Source of the DNA: Thiolapillus brandeum
Lineage (GTDB): Bacteria; Pseudomonadota; Gammaproteobacteria; Chromatiales; Chromatiaceae
DNA: 64,000 nt
NCBI RefSeq assembly: GCF_000828615.1
Contig: NZ_AP012273.1
Coordinates: 1,612,001-1,676,000, forward strand
Direction: 5' to 3'
Each line of letters begins with the position of its first letter. Within the stretch, counting starts at the first letter, position 1. Position numbers and translations under genes: made by a program. Shown here in pieces: positions 15,572 to 27,562 of the stretch. The notes beneath the pieces are model-generated. The model worked only from the letters and a program-made list of their open reading frames with translations, searched no databases and had not been told where the DNA came from.

Positions 15572-17866
15572 GGTTCGTCCCCCCCTGTGGGCGTGGGGAA
15601 CACGGGTTGGCCAGAGGTGCCACAGATCCGATGCGCGGTTCATCCCCACGGGCGTGGGGAACACCCGGATCTACGGGCAACGGGTCCTGATACCCCCGGT
15701 TCATCCCCACGGGCGTGGGGAACACTTGGGTCAATAGGGGGGCGTCCTGCCCCCCTTCGGTTCATCCCCACGGGCGTGGGGAACACGTATCTGACGATTG
15801 GGCGGGCTATTTTCATCACGGTTCATCCCCACGGGCGTGGGGAACACGGGGCTGGTCTGTGGTGAGCGCAAGGCTGGCGCGGTTCATCCCCACGGGCGTG
15901 GGGAACACGTCCTTGAACTCGTCGATAGTCATTGCTGTTGGCGGTTCATCCCCACGGGCGTGGGGAACACGGCTGGCGTCATGCGCTTGGCAACATGCTG
16001 AACGGTTCATCCCCACGGGCGTGGGGAACACTGTTGAGGTCATCGGTCCCCGGCAGATCAATACGGTTCATCCCCACGGGCGTGGGGAACACTCGATGGC
16101 GCCCGCATTGCCCCATAACTTGAACGGTTCATCCCCACGGGCGTGGGGAACACATCGAGCCGTCGTTGGCGAAGCGGAACACGCCCGGTTCATCCCCACG
16201 GGCGTGGGGAACACCAACACCTCAAACTGCTCTTCTGGCTTTAGATCGGTTCATCCCCACGGGCGTGGGGAACACCAGCGTCCGTCGCGTTCAATGGATA
16301 GGGCGCGCGGTTCATCCCCACGGGCGTGGGGAACACGGTATGATCATAGTTACACTGAAACCACCGATGCGGTTCATCCCCACGGGCGTGGGGAACACGA
16401 GCGCCCCCAGATATCCTGCGCGATACGGACCGGTTCATCCCCACGGGCGTGGGGAACACGGCGATGGCGTCGGCCAGGTCAAACAGGTGGTCGGTTCATC
16501 CCCACGGGCGTGGGGAACACGCCGATAGGCACGCCGTTGATGGTGAGCGCGTCGGTTCATCCCCACGGGCGTGGGGAACACGGGCTGGTATTGCGCTCGG
16601 GCCATCCCCTGCGCGGTTCATCCCCACGGGCGTGGGGAACACTTCATGTGTGGATATTTGCCCGTAACAATGCTCGGTTCATCCCCACGGGCGTGGGGAA
16701 CACCTTGCAGAATCACGTTCATTGCTCTGGTCGTGCGGTTCATCCCCACGGGCGTGGGGAACACGCCTTGACATACTCCGGAGCGTCTTTGCCCGCCGGT
16801 TCATCCCCACGGGCGTGGGGAACACACTCTTGAACATACCAAGCGTAGCTAAAACTGCGGTTCATCCCCACGGGCGTGGGGAACACTTGCCCAATAGATT
16901 TTTTGGCACTCGAAAACACGGTTCATCCCCACGGGCGTGGGGAACACGACGTTGTGCCGTCGGTGATCGTCACTGATCGGCGGTTCATCCCCACGGGCGT
17001 GGGGAACACGCTGGCCCCTACCCGGGCATTCACCAGGGCGGCGGTTCATCCCCACGGGCGTGGGGAACACATTTCAGCGAATAATTGCCTGATTCGGTAA
17101 CGCGGTTCATCCCCACGGGCGTGGGGAACACGGCCTCCAGTGGGCTGGTCACCCCTGCTGCGCCGGTTCATCCCCACGGGCGTGGGGAACACGCCCGACT
17201 GATCCAACAAAAGGCATCGGGTGGCCGGTTCATCCCCACGGGCGTGGGGAACACTGCCGGTCTGCCGGTGGCACCATTTGCCCAGGGCGGTTCATCCCCA
17301 CGGGCGTGGGGAACACTTTTTCGCCAGTTGCGGTATCAGCAATAACCACGGTTCATCCCCACGGGCGTGGGGAACACCCGACCATAGTCCATTGTTACAT
17401 TTAATTGTGCGGTTCATCCCCACGGGCGTGGGGAACACCCTACCTGCGCGACCTGATCTCGCAGATAGGACGGTTCATCCCCACGGGCGTGGGGAACACC
17501 CGTGCTTTTTCAACAGTGCCTGACATAGTTCCGGTTCATCCCCACGGGCGTGGGGAACACTGACCTGCCGATTGCCAGGCGCTGTACGGCACCGGTTCAT
17601 CCCCACGGGCGTGGGGAACACTGTGTTGCTGTAAATCATTGTGATCTCCTCGCCGGTTCATCCCCACGGGCGTGGGGAACACACGTCGGTCTCCTGGATG
17701 TTGCTGATCTGCACCGGTTCATCCCCACGGGCGTGGGGAACACTGTGGCGTTTGAGCGCATTGTAGATGGCGTTGCCGGTTCATCCCCACGGGCGTGGGG
17801 AACACGAGTCGCTTCCCATGGAACCCTTTGGTCAGGGCGGTTCATCCCCACGGGCGTGGGGAACAC
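15571..17866 (-). CRISPR. Type I-E CRISPR array, 38 repeats and 37 spacers
   Basis: Thirty-seven identical 29-bp repeats begin on the plus strand at 15636 and then every 61 or 62 bp to 17838. Each reads CGGTTCATCCCCACGGGCG then TGGGGAACAC. A 38th, degenerate copy (15571-15603, about 4 bp longer) closes the low-coordinate end. Spacers are 32 bp, with 33 bp in six cases. The repeat is the type I-E palindrome, and its transcribed strand is minus: GTGTTCCCC, hairpin, then the 8-nt handle ATGAACCG. The leader is therefore at 17867-17990 next to cas2, and the degenerate repeat is the trailer end. The perfect conservation of 37 repeats suggests active or recent acquisition. One spacer (17622-17653), read on the transcribed strand, looks like a ribosome site plus start codon (GAGGAGATCACAATG). 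Confidence 0.99.
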
Positions 17867-19215: not shown

Positions 19216-19527
19216 TCAGGCTACGCGGGGTTTGACCTCTCGGCGGATGGTGGCATCCTTCTCCCGCCGCGCTTGTCGCAGGTCATAATCGGTTTGCAGA
19301 TTGAGCCAAAACTCCGCACTGGTTTCAAAATAGCGCGCCAGACGCAGTGCGGTATCGGCAGAAATGGCACGTTTGCCTTGTAGAATGATGCTGATACGGT
19401 TGGGCGGAACGTGCAGAGCGCGTGCCAGGGCGTTGGCCGACAGCCCCAGCGGTTCCATGAACTCCCGACGCAGAATATCACCCGGTGTGCTCAGGGGAAG
19501 CAGGTCGTTGTTGTCCGGTTTATTCAT
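19216..19527 (-). CDS. higA: HigA-type antitoxin, XRE family, within the cas operon
   Basis: A 103-residue antitoxin and transcriptional autorepressor of the HigA/VapI type. The helix-turn-helix is at about residues 30-62 (LSANALARALHVPPNRISII, then LQGKRAISADTALRLARYF), followed by the typical AEFWLNLQTDYDLRQAR block. It would neutralise HigB by direct binding and repress the shared promoter. It starts 9 bp after the higB stop and ends 5 bp before cas1, so it is translated from the same mRNA as the adaptation genes. It appears intact, unlike its partner. Confidence 0.93.
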   Translation of the reverse strand: MNKPDNNDLLPLSTPGDILRREFMEPLGLSANALARALHVPPNRISIILQGKRAISADTALRLARYFETSAEFWLNLQTDYDLRQARREKDATIRREVKPRVA

Positions 19528-19536
19528 GATGGCTCC

Positions 19537-19983
19537 TCAATGATAGTCGGTGATCTCCACGTCGAAGGCGTGACCTCTATCCCAGCGAAAACAAATCCGC
19601 CATTGATCGTTGATGCGGATGCTCCACTGTCCCGCCCGGTTGCCCTGGAGTGGCTCCAGGCGATTGCCGGGCGGAACTTTAACAGGATGTTGAAAAAGCC
19701 CTTCCATGGGCTTTTTCAACTCGGAAAGACAAAAATGTGATTTTGTCTTTCCTCCATTTTCAATGACTGATGGCCATTGAAAATGGCCGCACATCCTTGT
19801 GCGGCAATCAGGCTGCCGAAAAATGGTGTTTTTCAACAGCCTTTTAAGGTTTTCCAGATCGACGGCTGCATCCAGCATGCGCAGTTTGTCGAATGCCCGG
19901 AGCTGAATCTGGGGCGGGAGCTTCCTGATCCGTCTGCCCTCGAAAAGCGTGGCGGTCACCTTGTTGCGGAAACTCTTGATCAT
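19537..19983 (-). CDS. higB: HigB-type toxin carrying an in-frame 55-residue insertion
   Basis: HigB toxins are RelE/ParE-fold ribosome-dependent mRNA endonucleases of about 92 residues. The flanks match the family: MIKSFRNKVTATLFEGRRIR and KLPPQIQLRAFDKLRMLDAA at the N-terminus, VPPGNRLEPLQGNRAGQWSI and RINDQWRICFRW at the C-terminus. Between LENLK and VPPGN lie 55 extra residues, encoded by a 160-bp MITE-like element plus its 5-bp duplication, with no stop and no frameshift, giving 148 residues. ATG at 19983 fits homologues; the TTG at 19989 is less likely. Activity of the enlarged toxin is uncertain: the insertion falls before the catalytic strands, possibly in a loop. Confidence 0.88.
   Translation of the reverse strand: MIKSFRNKVTATLFEGRRIRKLPPQIQLRAFDKLRMLDAAVDLENLKRLLKNTIFRQPDCRTRMCGHFQWPSVIENGGKTKSHFCLSELKKPMEGLFQHPVKVPPGNRLEPLQGNRAGQWSIRINDQWRICFRWDRGHAFDVEITDYH
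19678..19847. mobile_element. MITE-like element, copy 1, inserted in higB
   Basis: A 160-bp element at 19683-19842 flanked by the 5-bp duplication TTTAA (19678-19682 and 19843-19847). The ends form an imperfect terminal inverted repeat, CAGGATGTTGAAAAA against AGGCTGTTGAAAAA. The interior is a chain of hairpins: GAAAAAGCCC/GGGCTTTTTC, GACAAAA/TTTTGTC, CCATTTTCAATG/CATTGAAAATGG, CCGCAC/GTGCGG, and GAAAAA/TTTTTC. It has no transposase gene, so mobilisation would need one in trans. A near-identical copy lies at 38453-38604 and a short one at 39844-39905. Confidence 0.9.
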
Positions 19984-19988
19984 CGACA

Positions 19989-20017
19989 AGGATAGTACGC
20001 GATACGTAACACGTCAA
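19989..20017 (-). promoter_or_regulatory. Predicted internal promoter and operator for higBA
   Basis: On the minus strand: -35 TTGACG (20012-20017), 17-bp spacer, -10 TATCCT (19989-19994), just upstream of the higB ATG at 19983. The transcript would be nearly leaderless. The small palindrome ACGTAACACGT (20004-20014) overlaps the -35 end and is a plausible HigA operator. It would also give cas1-cas2 an expression route independent of the cse1 promoter. Confidence 0.5.
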
Positions 20018-20018
20018 A

Positions 20019-20705
20019 TCAGGCACGCCGCACCAGCATCAACCCGCAGCCGAAGGCCTTGGCGCGCCCCATGCCCTTCATCATTTGCTCCATGAATCGG
20101 TCCGTGTCAGTCACCGTCAGCGTCCCGAAAACATCGATACTGGTGAATTGACGCAGATTGTCATCTCCCGGTTTTCTGACCTTGTGGTGGCTGTGGTTGG
20201 CGACGAGTAATTCAGAAACCTCGAAGCCGTGCTGCTCGCCTTGGCGCTGCATCCATTCCTCGGCGGCTTCCTGGTGAATCACCGATGGCGGTGGCCGGTC
20301 CGCTGGATCGGGGCAGCGGGCCTTGTACTCGTCCACCTTGGCCTCGATGATGTCGCGGCGTAACCGCCGCTTGCTGTTGTCGCCCGCCTTGCGGGTGATC
20401 ACGGCATTGGCGCGCAGCTCGAACCGCAGCTGGTCTCCGGCTTGCAGGTGTGGTTCGAAGGATTTTGTTTCGACGGTGAGATAACTGTTCCCGGCCTTCG
20501 GTTGGCGCGCGGACAACAGATAATAGAACGGCGGTTTGCCGGGTCGATCTTCGCGCCGGTAGAGAAAATCGCGCGTCTGATCCGGTGGATTGTCGAACAA
20601 ATCCCAGATCATCTGATGCTCACGGAACGGGTTGGCGACCACGCCCTTGCGGCATTGAGCGCGGATGCCTTCGGGTGTAAAGCGAATACGGCTCAGATAC
20701 ATCAT
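20019..20705 (-). CDS. cas6e: Cas6e (CasE) crRNA-processing endoribonuclease
   Basis: Cleaves the repeat hairpin to make mature crRNA and stays bound to its 3' end in the Cascade complex. The 228-residue product has the double ferredoxin-like Cas6e pattern: N-terminal MYLSRIRFTP and NPFREHQMIWDLFDNPPDQT, then FLYRRED. The C-terminal glycine-rich loop is GMGRAKAFGCGLMLVRR, and basic residues with histidines (ANHSHHKVRK) lie in the RNA-binding region. It overlaps cas5e by an ATGA junction. Downstream the operon continues after 35 bp into higB rather than directly into cas1. Confidence 0.97.
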   Translation of the reverse strand: MMYLSRIRFTPEGIRAQCRKGVVANPFREHQMIWDLFDNPPDQTRDFLYRREDRPGKPPFYYLLSARQPKAGNSYLTVETKSFEPHLQAGDQLRFELRANAVITRKAGDNSKRRLRRDIIEAKVDEYKARCPDPADRPPPSVIHQEAAEEWMQRQGEQHGFEVSELLVANHSHHKVRKPGDDNLRQFTSIDVFGTLTVTDTDRFMEQMMKGMGRAKAFGCGLMLVRRA

Positions 20706-21412
20706 TCACCTCCCAAAAAGACGTATTCGTCACGTGGTGCAAATTGCCAGCGGCGGCGGCTGAGAGGTTGATCGTGACGTGGCGCGCGGTAGTCGTGGCG
20801 CATGCCGGTGTTCATGCCCGCCTCCCAGTAGTATCGTGGAGTGCCGGTTTGCAGGCGAGCCAACACCGGCGCAATGCAATAACTGTCCAGCGCTGAGCGC
20901 AGATCCGGAGCCGCTATGACTTCAGGATCCAATGGTGCGGCGGGCGGACAGGATTTGCGGCCTAGATAGAGCGGAAAGACCGGCTCCAGCAGGGCGTCAG
21001 CCAAACGCTCCACGCCATAGTCAGCATCGCTGGAGAGGGCGGCGACCAGACACAGGGCGTCTTGCCGATAGCTGCGGAACGACAGCATGGTGCCGAGTTT
21101 GGGCTCGCGCAGCTCGTCACGGCGGGTTTTAAGATGCTGTTGCTTGCGCGCGCCGGGCGGTACCTGAATGGTATGGAAGTCACGCAGCATCAGCCCCGGA
21201 GAAAACAGCTTGATGCCAAAGCGGCAGGCATCGCGTAGTTGCGCGTGGGCTTGTTCCTGCTCCCGTTTCAGACCCAGCGCGGCAGCCAGCAGGCCGAGGA
21301 GCGCAGAGCGACCGGGATGGTCATTCGTGGGGCGTTCCTGTCCCACCGCCTGCCCACCCCAGGCCGCGAGCGGCGCGTAGAGTTGGAATACCAGATAGTC
21401 GTCCATGGTCAT
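20702..21412 (-). CDS. cas5e: Cas5e (CasD) Cascade subunit
   Basis: Cascade subunit that caps the crRNA 5' handle. From ATG at 21412 the product is 236 residues and starts MTMDDYLVFQLYAPLAAWGG, a typical Cas5e N-terminus, followed by DHPGRSALLGLLAAALGLKR. The start is set by the ATGA overlap with the cas7e stop; the frame is open further upstream, but that would only overlap cas7e. The middle region REPKLGTMLSFRSYRQDALC and the C-terminal YYWEAGMNTGM are also family-like. Confidence 0.97.
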   Translation of the reverse strand: MTMDDYLVFQLYAPLAAWGGQAVGQERPTNDHPGRSALLGLLAAALGLKREQEQAHAQLRDACRFGIKLFSPGLMLRDFHTIQVPPGARKQQHLKTRRDELREPKLGTMLSFRSYRQDALCLVAALSSDADYGVERLADALLEPVFPLYLGRKSCPPAAPLDPEVIAAPDLRSALDSYCIAPVLARLQTGTPRYYWEAGMNTGMRHDYRAPRHDQPLSRRRWQFAPRDEYVFLGGE

Positions 21413-22443
21413 GCCTTCACAAAGTCGATGATGTCCTGCAGGCTGCCTTCGCCGGTCTGTGCATTCAGGCTGCACCGTTGATCGGCACAGTCGCCGTAAA
21501 CCTTGTCGAAGTTGTCACGTTGTTGCTCCAGGCGCTGGATCGCTGTACCGAGCAGGTCGCCGCCTCGCACCGCCTGAAGAAAGGCCACGGAGAGGCTGCG
21601 TGGCTGCTGGCTGCCCTTCTCCGCCAGCAGGTAGGAGGTGTAGGCACGGGAGGCAAAGCTGTTCTGCTTGCCGGTGGGGGCCACTTTGGCGGCGGCCTCG
21701 ACCAGCGCTGCGATGGCCTGTTGGGCCAGTTCCTCGTCGCCTTGCAGGTTCTCCACCAGCCGGTCGCGGTCGATGCAGATGTATTGATAGAAGATGCCGG
21801 AGCTGAAACCGGCATCGCCCATGTGGCCCGCGCCCGCGTCTTCCTCATGGGTATTGAGGTCATCCACGGCGGTGAAAAAGTCATCCTCGATTTTCACCTG
21901 ATTGACGGTGATGGCGTGGGCAACCTGGGTCGCCGCCTCGACGTTGTAGGCAGGGCTGGATGCCAGCATGCGACCAAACAGGGCGATATCAACGGCCTTG
22001 GGGTTCTTGCGCAACAGATTCAGCTCTTCCTTTTCCGGCGCACGGTCTTCGTTGGCTAGGGTATCGACCAGATTCTCGACGGCTTGCCTCTCTTCCGGCG
22101 ATACATGGGCCAGCTGTTCGATCTCGAAGGAATCCTTTTTCAGCTTGCCGAAAACACCGGCGATTTCGGCGGCCCATTTCTTCGCCTTGCTTTCCGATAC
22201 GCCTTTTTCGATTAAGCCTTCGAACACCTGCTCGCCCAGGCGTTTGGTCCGTGTACCCCGAAAATCGGCCAGGGCCGATTCGAAGTGTTCCGAGGTGCGC
22301 CAGGCGCGTTTCAGGCTTTGCGAGGAAATGCGCAACCGCTCCGTTCCGCCAACGATGGCGGTCTTGGGACGCCCCAGGTCGTCGCGGTTGAGGTTGGATG
22401 GTGGGTAAGCGGTCAGCATGTGTAGCTGGATGAATTGCGTCAT
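21409..22443 (-). CDS. cas7e: Cas7e (CasC/Cse4) Cascade backbone subunit
   Basis: Forms the six-subunit backbone along the crRNA spacer. The 344-residue product starts with TQFIQLHMLTAYPPSNLNRD and DLGRPKTAIVGGTERLRISS, the diagnostic Cas7e N-terminus. AAATQVAHAITVNQVKIEDD, then FFTAVDDL and GDAGFSSGIFYQY, match the thumb and fold regions. It is translated 22 bp after cse2 and overlaps cas5e. Confidence 0.97.
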   Translation of the reverse strand: MTQFIQLHMLTAYPPSNLNRDDLGRPKTAIVGGTERLRISSQSLKRAWRTSEHFESALADFRGTRTKRLGEQVFEGLIEKGVSESKAKKWAAEIAGVFGKLKKDSFEIEQLAHVSPEERQAVENLVDTLANEDRAPEKEELNLLRKNPKAVDIALFGRMLASSPAYNVEAATQVAHAITVNQVKIEDDFFTAVDDLNTHEEDAGAGHMGDAGFSSGIFYQYICIDRDRLVENLQGDEELAQQAIAALVEAAAKVAPTGKQNSFASRAYTSYLLAEKGSQQPRSLSVAFLQAVRGGDLLGTAIQRLEQQRDNFDKVYGDCADQRCSLNAQTGEGSLQDIIDFVKA

Positions 22444-22465
22444 GATTTTCTCCTTGTGAACGGGG

Positions 22466-23002
22466 TCAGGCGTTGTTCAGGGATTGGGGTTCGTAATAGG
22501 CACGGGCGAGGCGGTATTGCCACTGGTGTACGCCTGTGTAGCTGTCCGGCCATTGCCGCTGAGCCTGCCAGTGCAGGGTCTCATCGGCCAGTTGCACGGG
22601 ATCGGCGGTCTTGTTCAGTTGCATCACCGCGCGGCGCAGATTCTGGAACAGGTCTTCCGGCGTATTGGACGCCAGCAGACGCTGAAAGCGCAGTTCGCTG
22701 AATACGGGCGTATCACCACCTGGATCCCTCGGGTTGCCGAGCAACCGGGCGGTGGGGCGCTCGTCCCTGTTTTCCACCCAGGCCAGAATGCCTGCGACCA
22801 GTGCCAGGGCTTCCGGTGGTTGCTTGCGCAGGGCGCCCTGCCGGCACAGCCGGTAATAGGCCGGTTGCAGCATGATCTCGTCCCGGCTGTCGCAACGCCG
22901 CAGCCGGGCGCGGTCGCCGCGCTGGTTCTCATGGTGCAGCCAGGCATGCCATTCAGTGATGGCCTGCTGGCTGTCCGGGTCTCGCAGTCTTTGCAGATTC
23001 AT
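22466..23002 (-). CDS. cse2: Cse2 (CasB) Cascade small subunit
   Basis: The small subunit, present as a dimer in the belly of Cascade, which stabilises the R-loop. The 178-residue product is helical and basic, as expected: WHAWLHHENQRGDRARLRRC (residues about 18-37) and the C-terminal PVQLADETLHWQAQRQWPDS, then YTGVHQWQYRLARAYY. It starts 14 bp after the cse1 stop and precedes cas7e. Confidence 0.95.
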   Translation of the reverse strand: MNLQRLRDPDSQQAITEWHAWLHHENQRGDRARLRRCDSRDEIMLQPAYYRLCRQGALRKQPPEALALVAGILAWVENRDERPTARLLGNPRDPGGDTPVFSELRFQRLLASNTPEDLFQNLRRAVMQLNKTADPVQLADETLHWQAQRQWPDSYTGVHQWQYRLARAYYEPQSLNNA

Positions 23003-23016
23003 GTTTCCTCCGTGGG

Positions 23017-24594
23017 TCAGGCGGCCAGTGCCTTCATTACCCGGCTGCCGTTGAGGTGGTGGTTCAGTCCGCCCTTGCCATCGCGCGCCTGGACCACGCG
23101 CTTGAGATCGCCGTCTTCATTCAGGCTGGACAGGGCATACTGGTCGAACAGCTCGCGGGCCTGCCGTTTGAGGATATTGGCCCAGCGTTGCAGGGCTTCG
23201 TCGATGGCCTCTGCGTTGTCACCGGCGGCGATCAATTCGTGCAGACCACCATAGAAACCGGGTTCGGTGGCTGACCAGAAATTGGCGTCGATGAAGGAAA
23301 GATCCCCCTTGGCGTCCTTGGGGCGATCGAACCAGGCGCTCTTCAAGGCCGACTTGAGCATTTTCAGGGCATCACTGGCAGCCTCGATCATCTTTTTTGC
23401 CAGTTCCACGACATCTTCACGCTGTTCCTGTTCCAGGTTGAACAACGGCATCTCAGCCTCGTACCAGCAGCGCGCCTTCATGTTGTCCATGTCGTAGCCA
23501 AAGGCCCACAGGCGTGGCTCGAAGTCCAGCTCGCTGATCCGGCGCTGGCGGTCTTCATAACGCCGCACCGACAGCGCGGGGGTCCGTGTGAGCTTGCCCT
23601 GTTGGGCAGTCACGGCCAGTCCGAGCCAGTGGCGGTAACCCAGCCCGCCCGGCTGCGCCTTGATGGACAACGGTTCCTTGTCGCCCTCGAATACATAGGG
23701 CGTAAGGGGGTGTTGCCAATGTCCGGAATAGTTGATCCCGTAGTTCCTGGTGTGAAAGCCCGTCACCAATCCGGTTGACAGCTCTCCGGTCAGGTCGCAT
23801 TGACCTTGCTCTTCCGGGAAATGCAGGCGGATACGCCGCGGCATGCACCAGTACACCTGCAGCGGATGGGCCTGTTCAGGATAGGTTTCCGTCCCCTTCT
23901 TCTCGCTGGTTCGGGTTAGGGCCAGCCAGGGAAAGATGCGCTCCGGGGAAGTGTCTTGTGTGTCACCGGCAAGCTCGGCCATTTCGTCCCGGGTGAGGAC
24001 ATTCAGCCACAGTCGCTTCCAGAGGGTATCCTCTTCGCCACCTTCCGGCGGCAGAATCAGTGTCGTCAGCGGCCCGCCGCCCCGTACCGAAACGCGGTGC
24101 CCGACGCCGCCGGAAGGCGCATTGATCTGTAGCGTGAACAGAGCAAGGATGGCGGAAATGGGTGAAAGCTGGTTGATTCGGCCCCGTTTGACGAAGTGGT
24201 CCTGATTGTCCTTCAGCGTTTTTCCACCGGGTGCGTCGATGAAAAGCGCAGCGATTTCCTTGTCTTCTCCCTCGTCCAGCGTGAGGTCCTGCATGAAGGC
24301 AGGTTCGCCTATGGGGGCGTCGATATTGAAAGCGGGCAGCCAGGGCTCGAACGCATTCTGCAAGGCTGCTGCGTCGGGCGGGCTGCTCCAGTAATGCCGC
24401 CAGGTTTTGAGGTCTTTGGGAGCAAAGGCGGTTTGCAACAGGCCGATCAACAACTGGTAGATGGCACCGCGGAAATCGGCGCGGGGGGCAACGATGTCGG
24501 TGATGTCGGAAGTGGCGATGTCATGAGGACTGATTTCCCGACGCTCACCGTCGCGGCAAGCCACTTCAATCCATGGATGTGTCAGCAGATTCAT
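23017..24594 (-). CDS. cse1: Cse1 (CasA/Cas8e) Cascade large subunit
   Basis: The large subunit that recognises the PAM and recruits Cas3. From ATG at 24594 the product is 525 residues and begins MNLLTHPWIEV, the classic Cse1 start, with GGAG 7 bp upstream. An upstream in-frame start at 24627 lacks this support. The glycine-rich region (INAPSGGVGHRVSVRGGGPL) near residue 165-185 corresponds to the L1/PAM loop zone, and the C-terminal four-helix bundle covers about 390-525. It is the first gene after the regulatory intergenic region, with its own predicted promoter at 24711-24740. Confidence 0.97.
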   Translation of the reverse strand: MNLLTHPWIEVACRDGERREISPHDIATSDITDIVAPRADFRGAIYQLLIGLLQTAFAPKDLKTWRHYWSSPPDAAALQNAFEPWLPAFNIDAPIGEPAFMQDLTLDEGEDKEIAALFIDAPGGKTLKDNQDHFVKRGRINQLSPISAILALFTLQINAPSGGVGHRVSVRGGGPLTTLILPPEGGEEDTLWKRLWLNVLTRDEMAELAGDTQDTSPERIFPWLALTRTSEKKGTETYPEQAHPLQVYWCMPRRIRLHFPEEQGQCDLTGELSTGLVTGFHTRNYGINYSGHWQHPLTPYVFEGDKEPLSIKAQPGGLGYRHWLGLAVTAQQGKLTRTPALSVRRYEDRQRRISELDFEPRLWAFGYDMDNMKARCWYEAEMPLFNLEQEQREDVVELAKKMIEAASDALKMLKSALKSAWFDRPKDAKGDLSFIDANFWSATEPGFYGGLHELIAAGDNAEAIDEALQRWANILKRQARELFDQYALSSLNEDGDLKRVVQARDGKGGLNHHLNGSRVMKALAA

Positions 24595-24689
24595 GGTGGT
24601 CTCCAGAAGTCTCAATATCGATCTCAACGCGTAGCCAGCGCCCCAATTTCAAAAAGATTCGAACAACAAAATTGCGCATTTCATGATCC

Positions 24690-24708
24690 ATGAAAACCCG
24701 GTTTTCAT
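24690..24708. promoter_or_regulatory. Operator-like palindrome at the predicted cse1 start site
   Basis: ATGAAAACC-C-GGTTTTCAT: 9-bp perfect arms around one base, centred on the predicted transcription start of the cse1 promoter (about 24703). The position would suit a dimeric repressor. The overlapping smaller palindrome TCATG-ATC-CATGA lies at 24681-24693. Confidence 0.6.
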
Positions 24709-24710
24709 AA

Positions 24711-24740
24711 ATCATAAGTTTTGGGCTGGTTGACAGTCAA
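24711..24740 (-). promoter_or_regulatory. Predicted cse1 operon promoter
   Basis: On the minus strand: -35 TTGACT (24735-24740), 18-bp spacer, -10 TATGAT (24711-24716), both 5 of 6 to consensus. It gives a leader of about 110 nt before the cse1 ATG. The -35 lies in the palindrome TTGACAGTCAA shared with a divergent promoter. Confidence 0.7.
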
Positions 24741-24758
24741 GGCATTATTCTCCAAAAT
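24730..24758 (+). promoter_or_regulatory. Predicted divergent promoter for an antisense CRISPR-like RNA
   Basis: On the plus strand: -35 TTGACA (24730-24735, perfect), 17-bp spacer, -10 CAAAAT (24753-24758, 4 of 6). The start would be near 24765, just before the first degenerate repeat, so the RNA runs toward the 3' end of cas3 on the opposite strand. Confidence 0.6.
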
Positions 24759-24771
24759 AGCCAGCACCTCA

Positions 24772-24848
24772 GCTTTCCCTACGTTGTGGGGATGAACCTT
24801 TTTGAGCTGGGTGCGAAATAGGCTCCCCACCATTGTGGGGCTGATCAG
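24772..24848 (+). ncRNA. Candidate CreR/CreA-like RNA: two degenerate repeats around a short spacer
   Basis: The first degenerate repeat (24772-24799) matches 22 of 29 positions of the transcribed array repeat with one gap, including an unbroken GTGGGGATGAACC, so the Cas6e cut site and 5' handle are kept except for the last, PAM-derived base. Its stem is CCCTAC/GTGGGG with a G-U pair. The second (24820-24848) matches 19 of 29 and keeps CCCCAC/GTGGGG; it overlaps the cas3 stop. About 20 nt lie between them (TTTTGAGCTGGGTGCGAAAT). Both sit in plus orientation, opposite to the array and cas genes. The class assignment is inference by analogy with CRISPR-like regulatory RNAs in other type I loci. 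Confidence 0.5.
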
Positions 24849-27562
24849 GGAGGCGGCGCATCGCCGTCTCTCTGAATTTCCAGGCCTGCGTCCGCCGTAT
24901 AACAAAGATTGAGGGCGCTACCGATCTTGTCTCTGGCCTTAGTGATCCCCCCCTCATTCGTCGGCCTCAGCGGCACGATAAAGCTCTCATCATCGAACCG
25001 CTTCTCTTGTTCCCGTAGGGTGTCCAGCGCCGCCCGCAAAGCAGCATCCTCGATCGGCGCCAGTTCTCGCAGCTGCCCGGCGCGAATCCGCAGGCTGGAG
25101 CGATCCCAGCGGTAAGGGCCTTCGTCGGCCCAGGGTTGCAGTTTTCCGTTTTCCCAGCGGGCCAGATAGAGGGTCTGGCTCTCGTCGCCCAGGCGGGTGG
25201 CAATGCGGGCGTCTTCGTCCCACAGGGGGCCGCCACGATAACCAGACTCCAGCCGCAGGCTGGCGAATCGGCCGGCGTCTCGCTGGCTCAGGGTCTCGCC
25301 CTCGACGGCCAGCGAGGCGTCGGCCAGTCCCGGTGGAATATCGCCCACCTCGTTGTAAACAAATTCCAACAGATCCCGGGCGTCTTCCGGCATGCGCCAG
25401 CCGCCCTTTTCCTGCAACAGGCGGGCAGTGCGCCACAAAATCAGGGTGTCGGGATAGACGTAATGCGCTTTTGGGAAGAATGCCTTGTACCAGTCCGGCT
25501 GGGGGACGTCGATGGGCTCCGGCGTCAACAGATCCAGCACCGGCTGACCGCACTTGCCCCGGGCGTGCCGGTGCAGGCGCCCGGCGCGCTGGATCAGCAG
25601 GTCGATGGGTGCCACGTCGGAAATCATGCGGTCAAAGTCAAGATCGAGGGATTGTTCCACGACCTGGGTGGCAATGAGCACTTGGCCCCGACGTTCGTTG
25701 TCCGTCGAATCCTTGCCAAACCGGTTCAACATTGCCTGCTCGATGCGTAGCCGGTCGCAGAGGGCGAAGCGGCTGTGGAACAGGTGCAGGCTTTCTTTCT
25801 TTAGCCATTCGGCATTGCGCAGGGCTTGCCAGGCTGAGCGGGCATCCGCGACCGTGTTGCGTATCCAACAGATGCATTCGCCGGCCTGCACCGCGGCGCG
25901 AATCTCCTCCAGAATCGCTGCTTCTTCGTGATACAGCCTTATCTGCACCTGCCGCGCCACGCTGGCGCGAGTGTGTACGGGTTGTTCGGCCAGCAGCGCC
26001 TCGCGCGAGGCATGCGTCAGCAAGGGGTAAGCCATGGCTTCCGGTTCAATTGAGTTGTTTGCCTGGAAAGCGACGATGAGTTGTCCGCGTTGTTTTTTTG
26101 TCAGGGTGGCCGAAAGCAGGATGACGCTGCCGCCAAGGGCAGCGTGGAAGCTGATCAGCCGCTTCAGGGGTTCGGAAGTATAAGCGTCGTAGGCATGCAC
26201 CTCATCGAGAATCAGGATCTTGTTTTCCAGCCCCAGCAGGCGCAGGGACTGGTGCCGGGCGGGCATCACCGCCAGCAGGGCCTGGTCGATGGTGCCGATA
26301 CCCACATCGGCCAGCAGCGCCTTTTTGCGGTTGTCGGCCAGCCAGCGGTTGCACTGGGCGACGATGCTTTCCTCTTCTCGGCCATAGCGCGGATCGTCCA
26401 CCTGCAGTGCCAGCAGGGATTGCCGGAAGGCCTCGGACAGGTGGCGGGCGCCGTGACTGAGGATCAGGCTGGGCGGTTGATCGTCCGACTCATAGAGCCG
26501 CCGGTACACCCCGGCCATGCGTTCATACATGGCATTGGCCGTGGCCATGGTGGGCAGCCCGATATAGAGGCCCTCCCCCTGACCGGCGGCCATCAGGCGC
26601 GCGGCCAGGATCAGCGCCGCCTCGGTCTTGCCGGCGCCGGTGACGTCTTCGAGGATGAAGAGCTGGGGTTCCGGCTCGATGGGCAGTTCGAGGCAAGCCT
26701 GCTGCAAGGGCGTGGGTTGTTTGAGATAGTCGAACAGGTCACCGGGATCGCGCAGGATTCGAACCGGTGGGGGAAGAATTCCGGCATGACGGACAGCGTT
26801 CACCGCCGCAGGCAGGGCATGCCTTTCCCAGTAGTCCCGCAGTGGCGTCGGCGTATCGATAAACGCGAAATATTCCCGGTTCGAGCCCAGCCAGTCGGCC
26901 AGCACGGCGATGCCTGCGAGCAGCCAGCTGGCCTCACGTTGACGGTGGACGAATTCGGCATCATCAAAATGTTGCTTTAGCGCATCCAGGTCCGGGCCGA
27001 TGAGTTCCAGCCATTGTCGGCTGAAGTCGAGCGCGGCCTGTTGGTCGAACTCCCGGAAATGGCGTTTGAGTCGCTCGCTTTTGCCCGGCATGTCGGGTGG
27101 CCAGCCGTGATGGCCGGTGACCGCCGCCATCCAGTAGTCCATGGCATCTTCGATGAAGTCCTGGAATGCTTCGTCGAATAGTTCGAAGCACAGGAATTCC
27201 CGCCACAGCAGCCAGCCGAGGGCGTCATGGCGCAGGCTGTAATTCTTGTTGCGGGTCTTTTCATCAGGCCACAGCGCGAGACGAAGATCTTCGCGCAGTT
27301 GCTGGAAACTTTCGGCGAATTTTCCCAGGTCGTGAAGGCCTAGGAGGAAGAGAACCCAAACCCGAGTCTGATCCTCCGGCAGTCCCATCAATCGAGACAG
27401 TCTGCGCAGCAATTCCGGGCGCTGCTCAAACAAAACCGCTGCCACCGCCGCCACATCCAGGGAATGATACGCCAGCAGGTGAAAACCCGCCTCACCAGCC
27501 TCTCGGGAACCGGCTTTTCCCCAGTATCGAAAAAAATTTGGATTTGTGCGGTGTTCTTTCAT
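24845..27562 (-). CDS. cas3: Cas3 helicase-nuclease, type I-E
   Basis: Recruited by Cascade to unwind and degrade target DNA. The 905-residue product has an N-terminal HD nuclease domain with H33 and D36 (AYHSLD), the HD pair H77-D78 (GLHDLGK) and later histidines (VTGHHGWPP, 149-156). The superfamily 2 helicase has Walker A DVTGAGKT at 306-313, DEVH at 453-456, LSATLTK, and motif VI QRAGRLHRH. A C-terminal accessory domain follows. ATG at 27562 follows a small hairpin that may hide its ribosome site. It is first in the cas gene order and is separated from cse1 by a 250-bp regulatory region. Between pyrF and cas3 lies only 53 bp. Confidence 0.98.
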   Translation of the reverse strand: MKEHRTNPNFFRYWGKAGSREAGEAGFHLLAYHSLDVAAVAAVLFEQRPELLRRLSRLMGLPEDQTRVWVLFLLGLHDLGKFAESFQQLREDLRLALWPDEKTRNKNYSLRHDALGWLLWREFLCFELFDEAFQDFIEDAMDYWMAAVTGHHGWPPDMPGKSERLKRHFREFDQQAALDFSRQWLELIGPDLDALKQHFDDAEFVHRQREASWLLAGIAVLADWLGSNREYFAFIDTPTPLRDYWERHALPAAVNAVRHAGILPPPVRILRDPGDLFDYLKQPTPLQQACLELPIEPEPQLFILEDVTGAGKTEAALILAARLMAAGQGEGLYIGLPTMATANAMYERMAGVYRRLYESDDQPPSLILSHGARHLSEAFRQSLLALQVDDPRYGREEESIVAQCNRWLADNRKKALLADVGIGTIDQALLAVMPARHQSLRLLGLENKILILDEVHAYDAYTSEPLKRLISFHAALGGSVILLSATLTKKQRGQLIVAFQANNSIEPEAMAYPLLTHASREALLAEQPVHTRASVARQVQIRLYHEEAAILEEIRAAVQAGECICWIRNTVADARSAWQALRNAEWLKKESLHLFHSRFALCDRLRIEQAMLNRFGKDSTDNERRGQVLIATQVVEQSLDLDFDRMISDVAPIDLLIQRAGRLHRHARGKCGQPVLDLLTPEPIDVPQPDWYKAFFPKAHYVYPDTLILWRTARLLQEKGGWRMPEDARDLLEFVYNEVGDIPPGLADASLAVEGETLSQRDAGRFASLRLESGYRGGPLWDEDARIATRLGDESQTLYLARWENGKLQPWADEGPYRWDRSSLRIRAGQLRELAPIEDAALRAALDTLREQEKRFDDESFIVPLRPTNEGGITKARDKIGSALNLCYTADAGLEIQRDGDAPPP

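Follow-up and report, generated by a model that had tools for sequence, protein, structure and literature searches.

What regulates the Cascade genes of Thiolapillus brandeum, and what does the promoter predicted next to theirs, facing the other way, transcribe? The minus strand of the window (the whole stretch of 64,000 nucleotides analysed) carries a type I-E cas locus comprising cas3, cse1, cse2, cas7, cas5, cas6e, a higA-type gene, cas1, cas2 and a CRISPR array, and profile matches for Cse1, Cse2, Cas7, Cas5, Cas6e, Cas3, Cas1 and Cas2 indicate that a cognate effector and a Cas6 are present. A gap of 250 bases separates cas3 (24845–27562, with matched HD and helicase domains) from cse1 (cas8e; 23017–24594), the first Cascade gene of the operon, which begins with an ATG at 24594 (MNLLTHPW...) preceded by GGAG. 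The remaining Cascade genes, cse2, cas7, cas5 and cas6e (20019–23002, minus strand), include the nuclease expected to process the RNA proposed below. The array (15572–17866, minus strand) contains 37 exact copies of the repeat GTGTTCCCCACGCCCGTGGGGATGAACCG, with spacers of 32 nt (30 spacers) or 33 nt (6 spacers). Between cas6e and cas1, a higBA stretch (19216–19989, minus strand) holds a HigA-type antitoxin gene inside the cas operon (19216–19527; TIGR02607, 112 bits) and a HigB-like toxin gene broken by an insertion of about 190 bases with inverted ends.

Two divergent promoters are predicted in the cas3–cse1 gap from their consensus matches: that of cse1 and the Cascade operon, TTGACT-18-TATGAT (24711–24740, minus strand), and one on the plus strand, TTGACA-17-CAAAAT (24730–24758), which is also supported by its conserved position and has a predicted start near 24765. 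They meet in TTGACAGTCAA (24730–24740), a sequence that occurs once in the window, with their -35 boxes back to back and one base in common. A scan of 3 kb found no other promoter-like site; shuffled sequence yielded 0.8 (sd 0.9) compared to these two, and by number alone they therefore barely exceed chance. Back-to-back -35 boxes are also predicted in six relatives, with one to five bases common to both boxes in L010, L011, L012, L014 and L015, and six in L023. The divergent promoters overlapping at -35 that the initial annotation had described are thus both present in the prediction and conserved in their abutting layout, and the exclusion of one polymerase by the other at this site may act alongside the RNA-guided mechanism described below.

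The mini-CRISPR unit and its match to the cse1 promoter

The plus-strand promoter had been read as an antisense promoter. Its prediction stands, but it is not simply a source of antisense RNA. It heads a mini-CRISPR overlooked in the initial annotation (24771–24848, plus strand), in which a 20-nt spacer, the guide, sits between two degenerate CRISPR repeats and fits the cse1 promoter. The first degenerate repeat, psiR1 (24771–24799; GCTTTCCCTACGTTGTGGGGATGAACCT), lies six bases downstream of the predicted start. Its second half equals the array repeat except for the last base, and the 14 bases before that final T (GTGGGGATGAACC) form the sole exact copy of this repeat segment outside the array. 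psiR1 contains the 8-nt handle ATGAACCT (24792–24799), which is followed by the spacer-like guide psiS (24800–24819; TTTTGAGCTGGGTGCGAAAT) and by the second degenerate repeat, psiR2 (24820–24848), with a 6-bp hairpin, CCCCAC-CATT-GTGGGG. Both repeats align to the array repeat and retain its hairpins and the ATGAACC handle, outside the array and beside the cas genes. A further, strong hairpin after psiR2 (24844–24875, plus strand) overlaps the 3′ end of cas3, and five relatives retain it with several of its pairs altered on both sides of the stem; because the terminator scan did not list it among its hits, its probable role as the terminator of the unit is one we infer. The predicted 121-nt RNA folds with z = -4.25. 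A search of Rfam with 24560–24900, up to E = 1, gave no family match, and no similar DNA was found in the plasmid collection.

The guide (TTTTGAGCTGGGTG) matches TTTTGGGCTGGTTG at 24719–24732 with mismatches at positions 6 and 12 only. The match directly follows a PAM, AAG (24716–24718, plus strand), whose first base doubles as part of the cse1 -10 box. The full target (24719–24738, plus strand) lies between the -10 and -35 boxes of the cse1 promoter and extends into the -35 box of the opposing one. Type I Cascade turns the target base out at positions 6 and 12, which are unread; all 12 of the pairing positions (1–14 minus 6 and 12) thus fit, next to AAG and inside a predicted promoter. When the target stretch was shuffled 20,000 times with dinucleotides preserved, this outcome never occurred; at least 10 positions with AAG were reached five times, and 12 positions without the PAM condition twice. 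In the 3.15-Mb genome, exact AAG plus seed (positions 1–5 and 7–11) is found at one site, the cse1 promoter.

We hold with high confidence that this mini-CRISPR is a creR gene divergent from the Cascade operon, by which Cascade would be guided to repress its own genes. In the proposed sequence of events, Cas6e would cut the creR RNA in both degenerate repeats to yield a crRNA-like RNA of 8-nt handle and 20-nt guide, predicted to begin with ATGAACCU at 24792. Loaded with this CreR, Cascade would bind at the AAG next to the -10 box of the cse1 promoter and open positions 1–14 up to the common -35 region. RNA polymerase would thereby be blocked at cse1 and probably at creR as well; repression of creR itself is likely, since here and in the relatives with abutting -35 boxes Cascade on the cse1 promoter would also cover the creR -35 box. 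Because the guide is short and its pairing ends some 14 positions in, cutting by Cas3 is not expected. Conversely, crRNAs or anti-CRISPR proteins that draw Cascade away would release the operon. As read from the sequence, Cascade very probably limits its own synthesis.

Covariation of guide and target among cse1 loci

Up to 700 bases upstream of cse1 were scanned in related loci for a hairpin followed by an 8-nt handle and a guide with at least nine of ten pairing positions matched beside an AAG anywhere in the region; by design, this threshold disregards positions 6 and 12. The sample was picked by similarity to the window's Cse1 and is no census. In the first set, 77 of 80 loci were used (L016, L031 and L068, without the Cse1 N-terminus, were dropped) and 49 of a further 59 entered after the genome's own locus, repeats and fragments were left out; removal of four more duplicates gave 123 regions, window included. 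For the second set of 29 loci (L148–L176), 26 entered and two near-duplicates were dropped, leaving 24. Two loci, L017 and L076, could hardly score, with only 127 and 20 bases upstream.

The arrangement occurred at the handle length of 8 in 32 of 147 regions, compared to 0–3 of 147 for each of the 12 alternative lengths. The first set contributed 27 of 123 regions (0–3 at handles of 2–7 or 9–14) and the second set 5 of 24 (0–2 at other handles); with all ten pairing positions required, 19 regions of the first set remained at handle 8, against 0–1 at other handles. All 32 best guides listed lie on the strand opposite cse1 and point away from it, and a second hairpin of at least 6 bp was present downstream of the guide in every one of the 32 loci, compared to 7.5% of shuffled flanks. 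The other 115 regions had no match, and the arrangement is therefore not universal even within type I-E. Among loci in which cas3 abuts cse1, L009, L018 and L019 showed no creR-like unit in their upstream sequence, including that upstream of cas3, and none was present in the upstream sequence of L013 and L021, which ends short of the cas3 start.

Guide-target pairs were then compared between loci. L012 and L052, whose PAM is AAA, fall outside the 32 and were nevertheless added to the analyses of covariation, guide length and promoter layout; L081 and L133, with the target on the other strand, were left out of the covariation analysis, which comprised 27 pairs. Guides matched their own targets at 11.5 of 12 positions and those of other loci at 3.7 of 12 on average. 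That guide and target vary together is, within these sequence comparisons, the best evidence of function.

At the two unread positions, the target is nearly always A or T: position 6 in 31 of 35 pairs and position 12 in all 35, compared to 65% in the flanks, and in 23 and 26 of 26, respectively, after clustering. At position 6, guide and target match in 1 of 27 pairs against 6.2 expected by re-pairing (P = 0.003), and at position 12 in 8 of 27 against 7.6 expected. Such a bias could stem in part from the low cost of opening A:T pairs where no pairing with RNA is gained in return, or from the breaking of a direct repeat. Target position 15 is also A/T-rich.

E. coli K-12 was added to the analyses of guide length and promoter layout. 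Its casA–cas3 intergenic region (L177), which we take to be the site of the known divergent promoter anti-Pcas, contains a hairpin, a ATAAACCG handle and a guide with nine of ten pairing positions and AAG, divergent from casA. Compared to the window, however, the guide is 31 nt long, the target lies 154 bases before the guide and the promoters do not abut. In a layout analysis of 33 loci, based on a simple promoter score, the PAM was fused to the -10 box in 8 loci (the window, L010, L011, L012, L014, L015, L023 and L083), to the -35 box in 11 (L029, L037, L052, L057, L062, L063, L066, L095, L127, L128 and L143), and to neither promoter box in 14.

The palindrome and the short reading frame

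A second candidate control element, the 19-bp palindrome ATGAAAACC-C-GGTTTTCAT (24690–24708), covers the site where cse1 transcription is predicted to begin. Perfect palindromes with 9-bp arms are unlikely by chance in so short a region, with 0.2% of shuffled intergenic sequences containing one, although the whole window holds two such palindromes compared to 0.4 expected. The initial annotation placed this one exactly over the start of cse1 as an operator. However, cse1 begins at 24594, and the ATG in the palindrome, in the same frame, meets a stop after 19 codons, so that gene start was wrong, and the in-frame stop rules out the palindrome as the cse1 start or an operator at its ribosome site. 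Neither the palindrome nor its half-site was found in any of six relatives examined, and the genome contains one perfect copy, one further site at two mismatches and others at three; a conserved or repeated operator does not emerge. Of the compact switch proposed in that annotation for the Cascade genes, the divergent promoters, expected to exclude one another, are supported by their anatomy and by the abutting -35 boxes of six relatives, whereas the operator part is unsupported; the palindrome may bind a regulator or be accidental.

These observations bear on two alternatives to creR. A switch made of proteins only, in which the polymerases exclude each other at the common -35 region and a regulator binds the palindrome, would account for the abutting -35 boxes in seven loci and for a perfect palindrome over the predicted start site. 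It leaves the guide-target match and its covariation unexplained, and the palindrome on which it depends is absent from six relatives and has one perfect genome copy; we consider this account unlikely. Alternatively, a locally encoded regulator could use the palindrome as its operator; one example is the HigA-type antitoxin, whose gene lies in the operon over whose predicted start the palindrome sits. By eye, however, the sequence before higBA could hold a promoter of its own, and no shared motif was found; an operator of this kind is a distinctly improbable reading.

A further alternative concerns the product of the repressed promoter. Between the cas promoter and cse1 lies an unannotated ORF of 37 codons (MRNFVVRIFLKLGRWLRVEIDIETSG...; 24566–24679, minus strand), which overlaps the cse1 start and is also found upstream of cse1 in L010, L011, L012, L014, L015, L017 and L023. 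Over all pairs of these eight loci, differences at codon positions 1, 2 and 3 number 259, 126 and 324, respectively, with the second position least changed. We found no earlier report of this conserved ORF in a search that ran without the primary CreR paper. In L081 (from the same genome as L005), a different short ORF with an apparent membrane segment was seen by eye between creR and cse1. In the CreTA addiction module the repressed gene is a toxin, and here the first product after the promoter would be that of the 37-codon ORF, followed by cse1. A CreR-repressed promoter might drive a harmful small product besides the Cascade genes, as the position of the ORF directly downstream of the predicted repressed promoter and its low rate of change at second codon positions would allow. 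However, there is no sign of a harmful peptide, the ORF lies within the Cascade operon itself, a clear ATG is missing from it in L010 and L017, and the window's copy matched no Pfam family (E up to 1) and no PADLOC family (E up to 0.01); an addiction module is very unlikely. Finally, although its repeats are degenerate, a decayed array remnant without present function is scarcely credible, given that relatives preserve the repeat hairpins, the 8-nt handle and the match at the seed even as the letters of the seed change, that the arrangement occurs in 32 of 147 loci against 0–3 at wrong handle lengths, and that guide-target covariation rules out a plain decayed array.

Known CreRs and two guide lengths

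CreR, a cas-regulating crRNA-like RNA, was reportedly described by Liu et al. in Cell Host Microbe in 2023, and CreR in type I-E is already published. CreR is described in reviews with type I-E named (PMC13131331, PMC12737573), and CreRs are said to autorepress type I-B, I-E and V-A systems (PMC13131331). As these reviews portray CreR, the window's unit resembles it as a degenerate-repeat mini-CRISPR near cas genes with a limited spacer match to a cas promoter beside a PAM; it differs in its 20-nt guide, which falls 12 nt short of the array spacers, and in that the creR and cse1 -35 boxes abut. For CreA (type I-B), pairing is needed at exactly positions 1–5 and 7–11, with 6 and 12 free (PMC8501985). 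CreA of CreTA shares with the window's unit two divergent degenerate repeats, an 8-nt handle, pairing at positions 1–5 and 7–11, and a PAM inside a promoter element, but CreA represses a toxin RNA, whereas the target in the window is the Cascade operon promoter, with no toxin gene identified.

Guide length, measured as the distance to the second hairpin, is bimodal over 35 pairs (the 32 hits, L012, L052 and E. coli): 20 nt (10 pairs), 21 (4), 22 (3), 31 (3), 32 (13), 33 (1) and 35 (1), with none at 23–30 nt. A stricter hairpin definition split the 32 hits into the same two classes. The gap of about 12 nt corresponds to two Cas7 steps, and the step may have occurred within one lineage, to judge from the similar seeds of the window's clade, with guides of 20 nt, and of L023, with one of 32 nt. 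A plausible but tentative interpretation is that type I-E CreRs form classes of about 20 and 32 nt, two 6-nt Cas7 steps apart, the short class assembling a smaller Cascade with two Cas7 fewer for gene regulation and the array crRNAs the full complex. Spacers of up to 24 nt in Haloarcula repress without cutting (PMC10989794), whereas in type I-E slow cutting by Cas3 persists after 6 or 12 nt are taken off the guide (PMC7296934); short pairing, and not length alone, must therefore spare the chromosome. A literature search that did not reach the primary CreR paper or the E. coli short-spacer paper found nothing on CreR guide length and promoter layout, and no earlier report of the two length classes. 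Within several 32-nt guides (L083, L052, L029, L066 and others), the 3′ half can pair with the guide's own seed; striking by eye, such seed self-hairpins remain a lead only, with a mean z of -0.9 in long guides compared to -0.2 in array spacers (sd 1.4), strongest in L083 (-3.9).

Overall, on the creR reading, what looked like an antisense promoter becomes part of a specific mechanism open to testing, in which Cascade would sense its own free supply by way of one RNA. Roughly one in five of the sampled Cse1 loci shows the arrangement, and many bacteria thus supply guide-target pairs for testing. The two length classes point to a possible second, smaller form of Cascade that bacteria would use for regulation, an idea that lends itself to direct testing.
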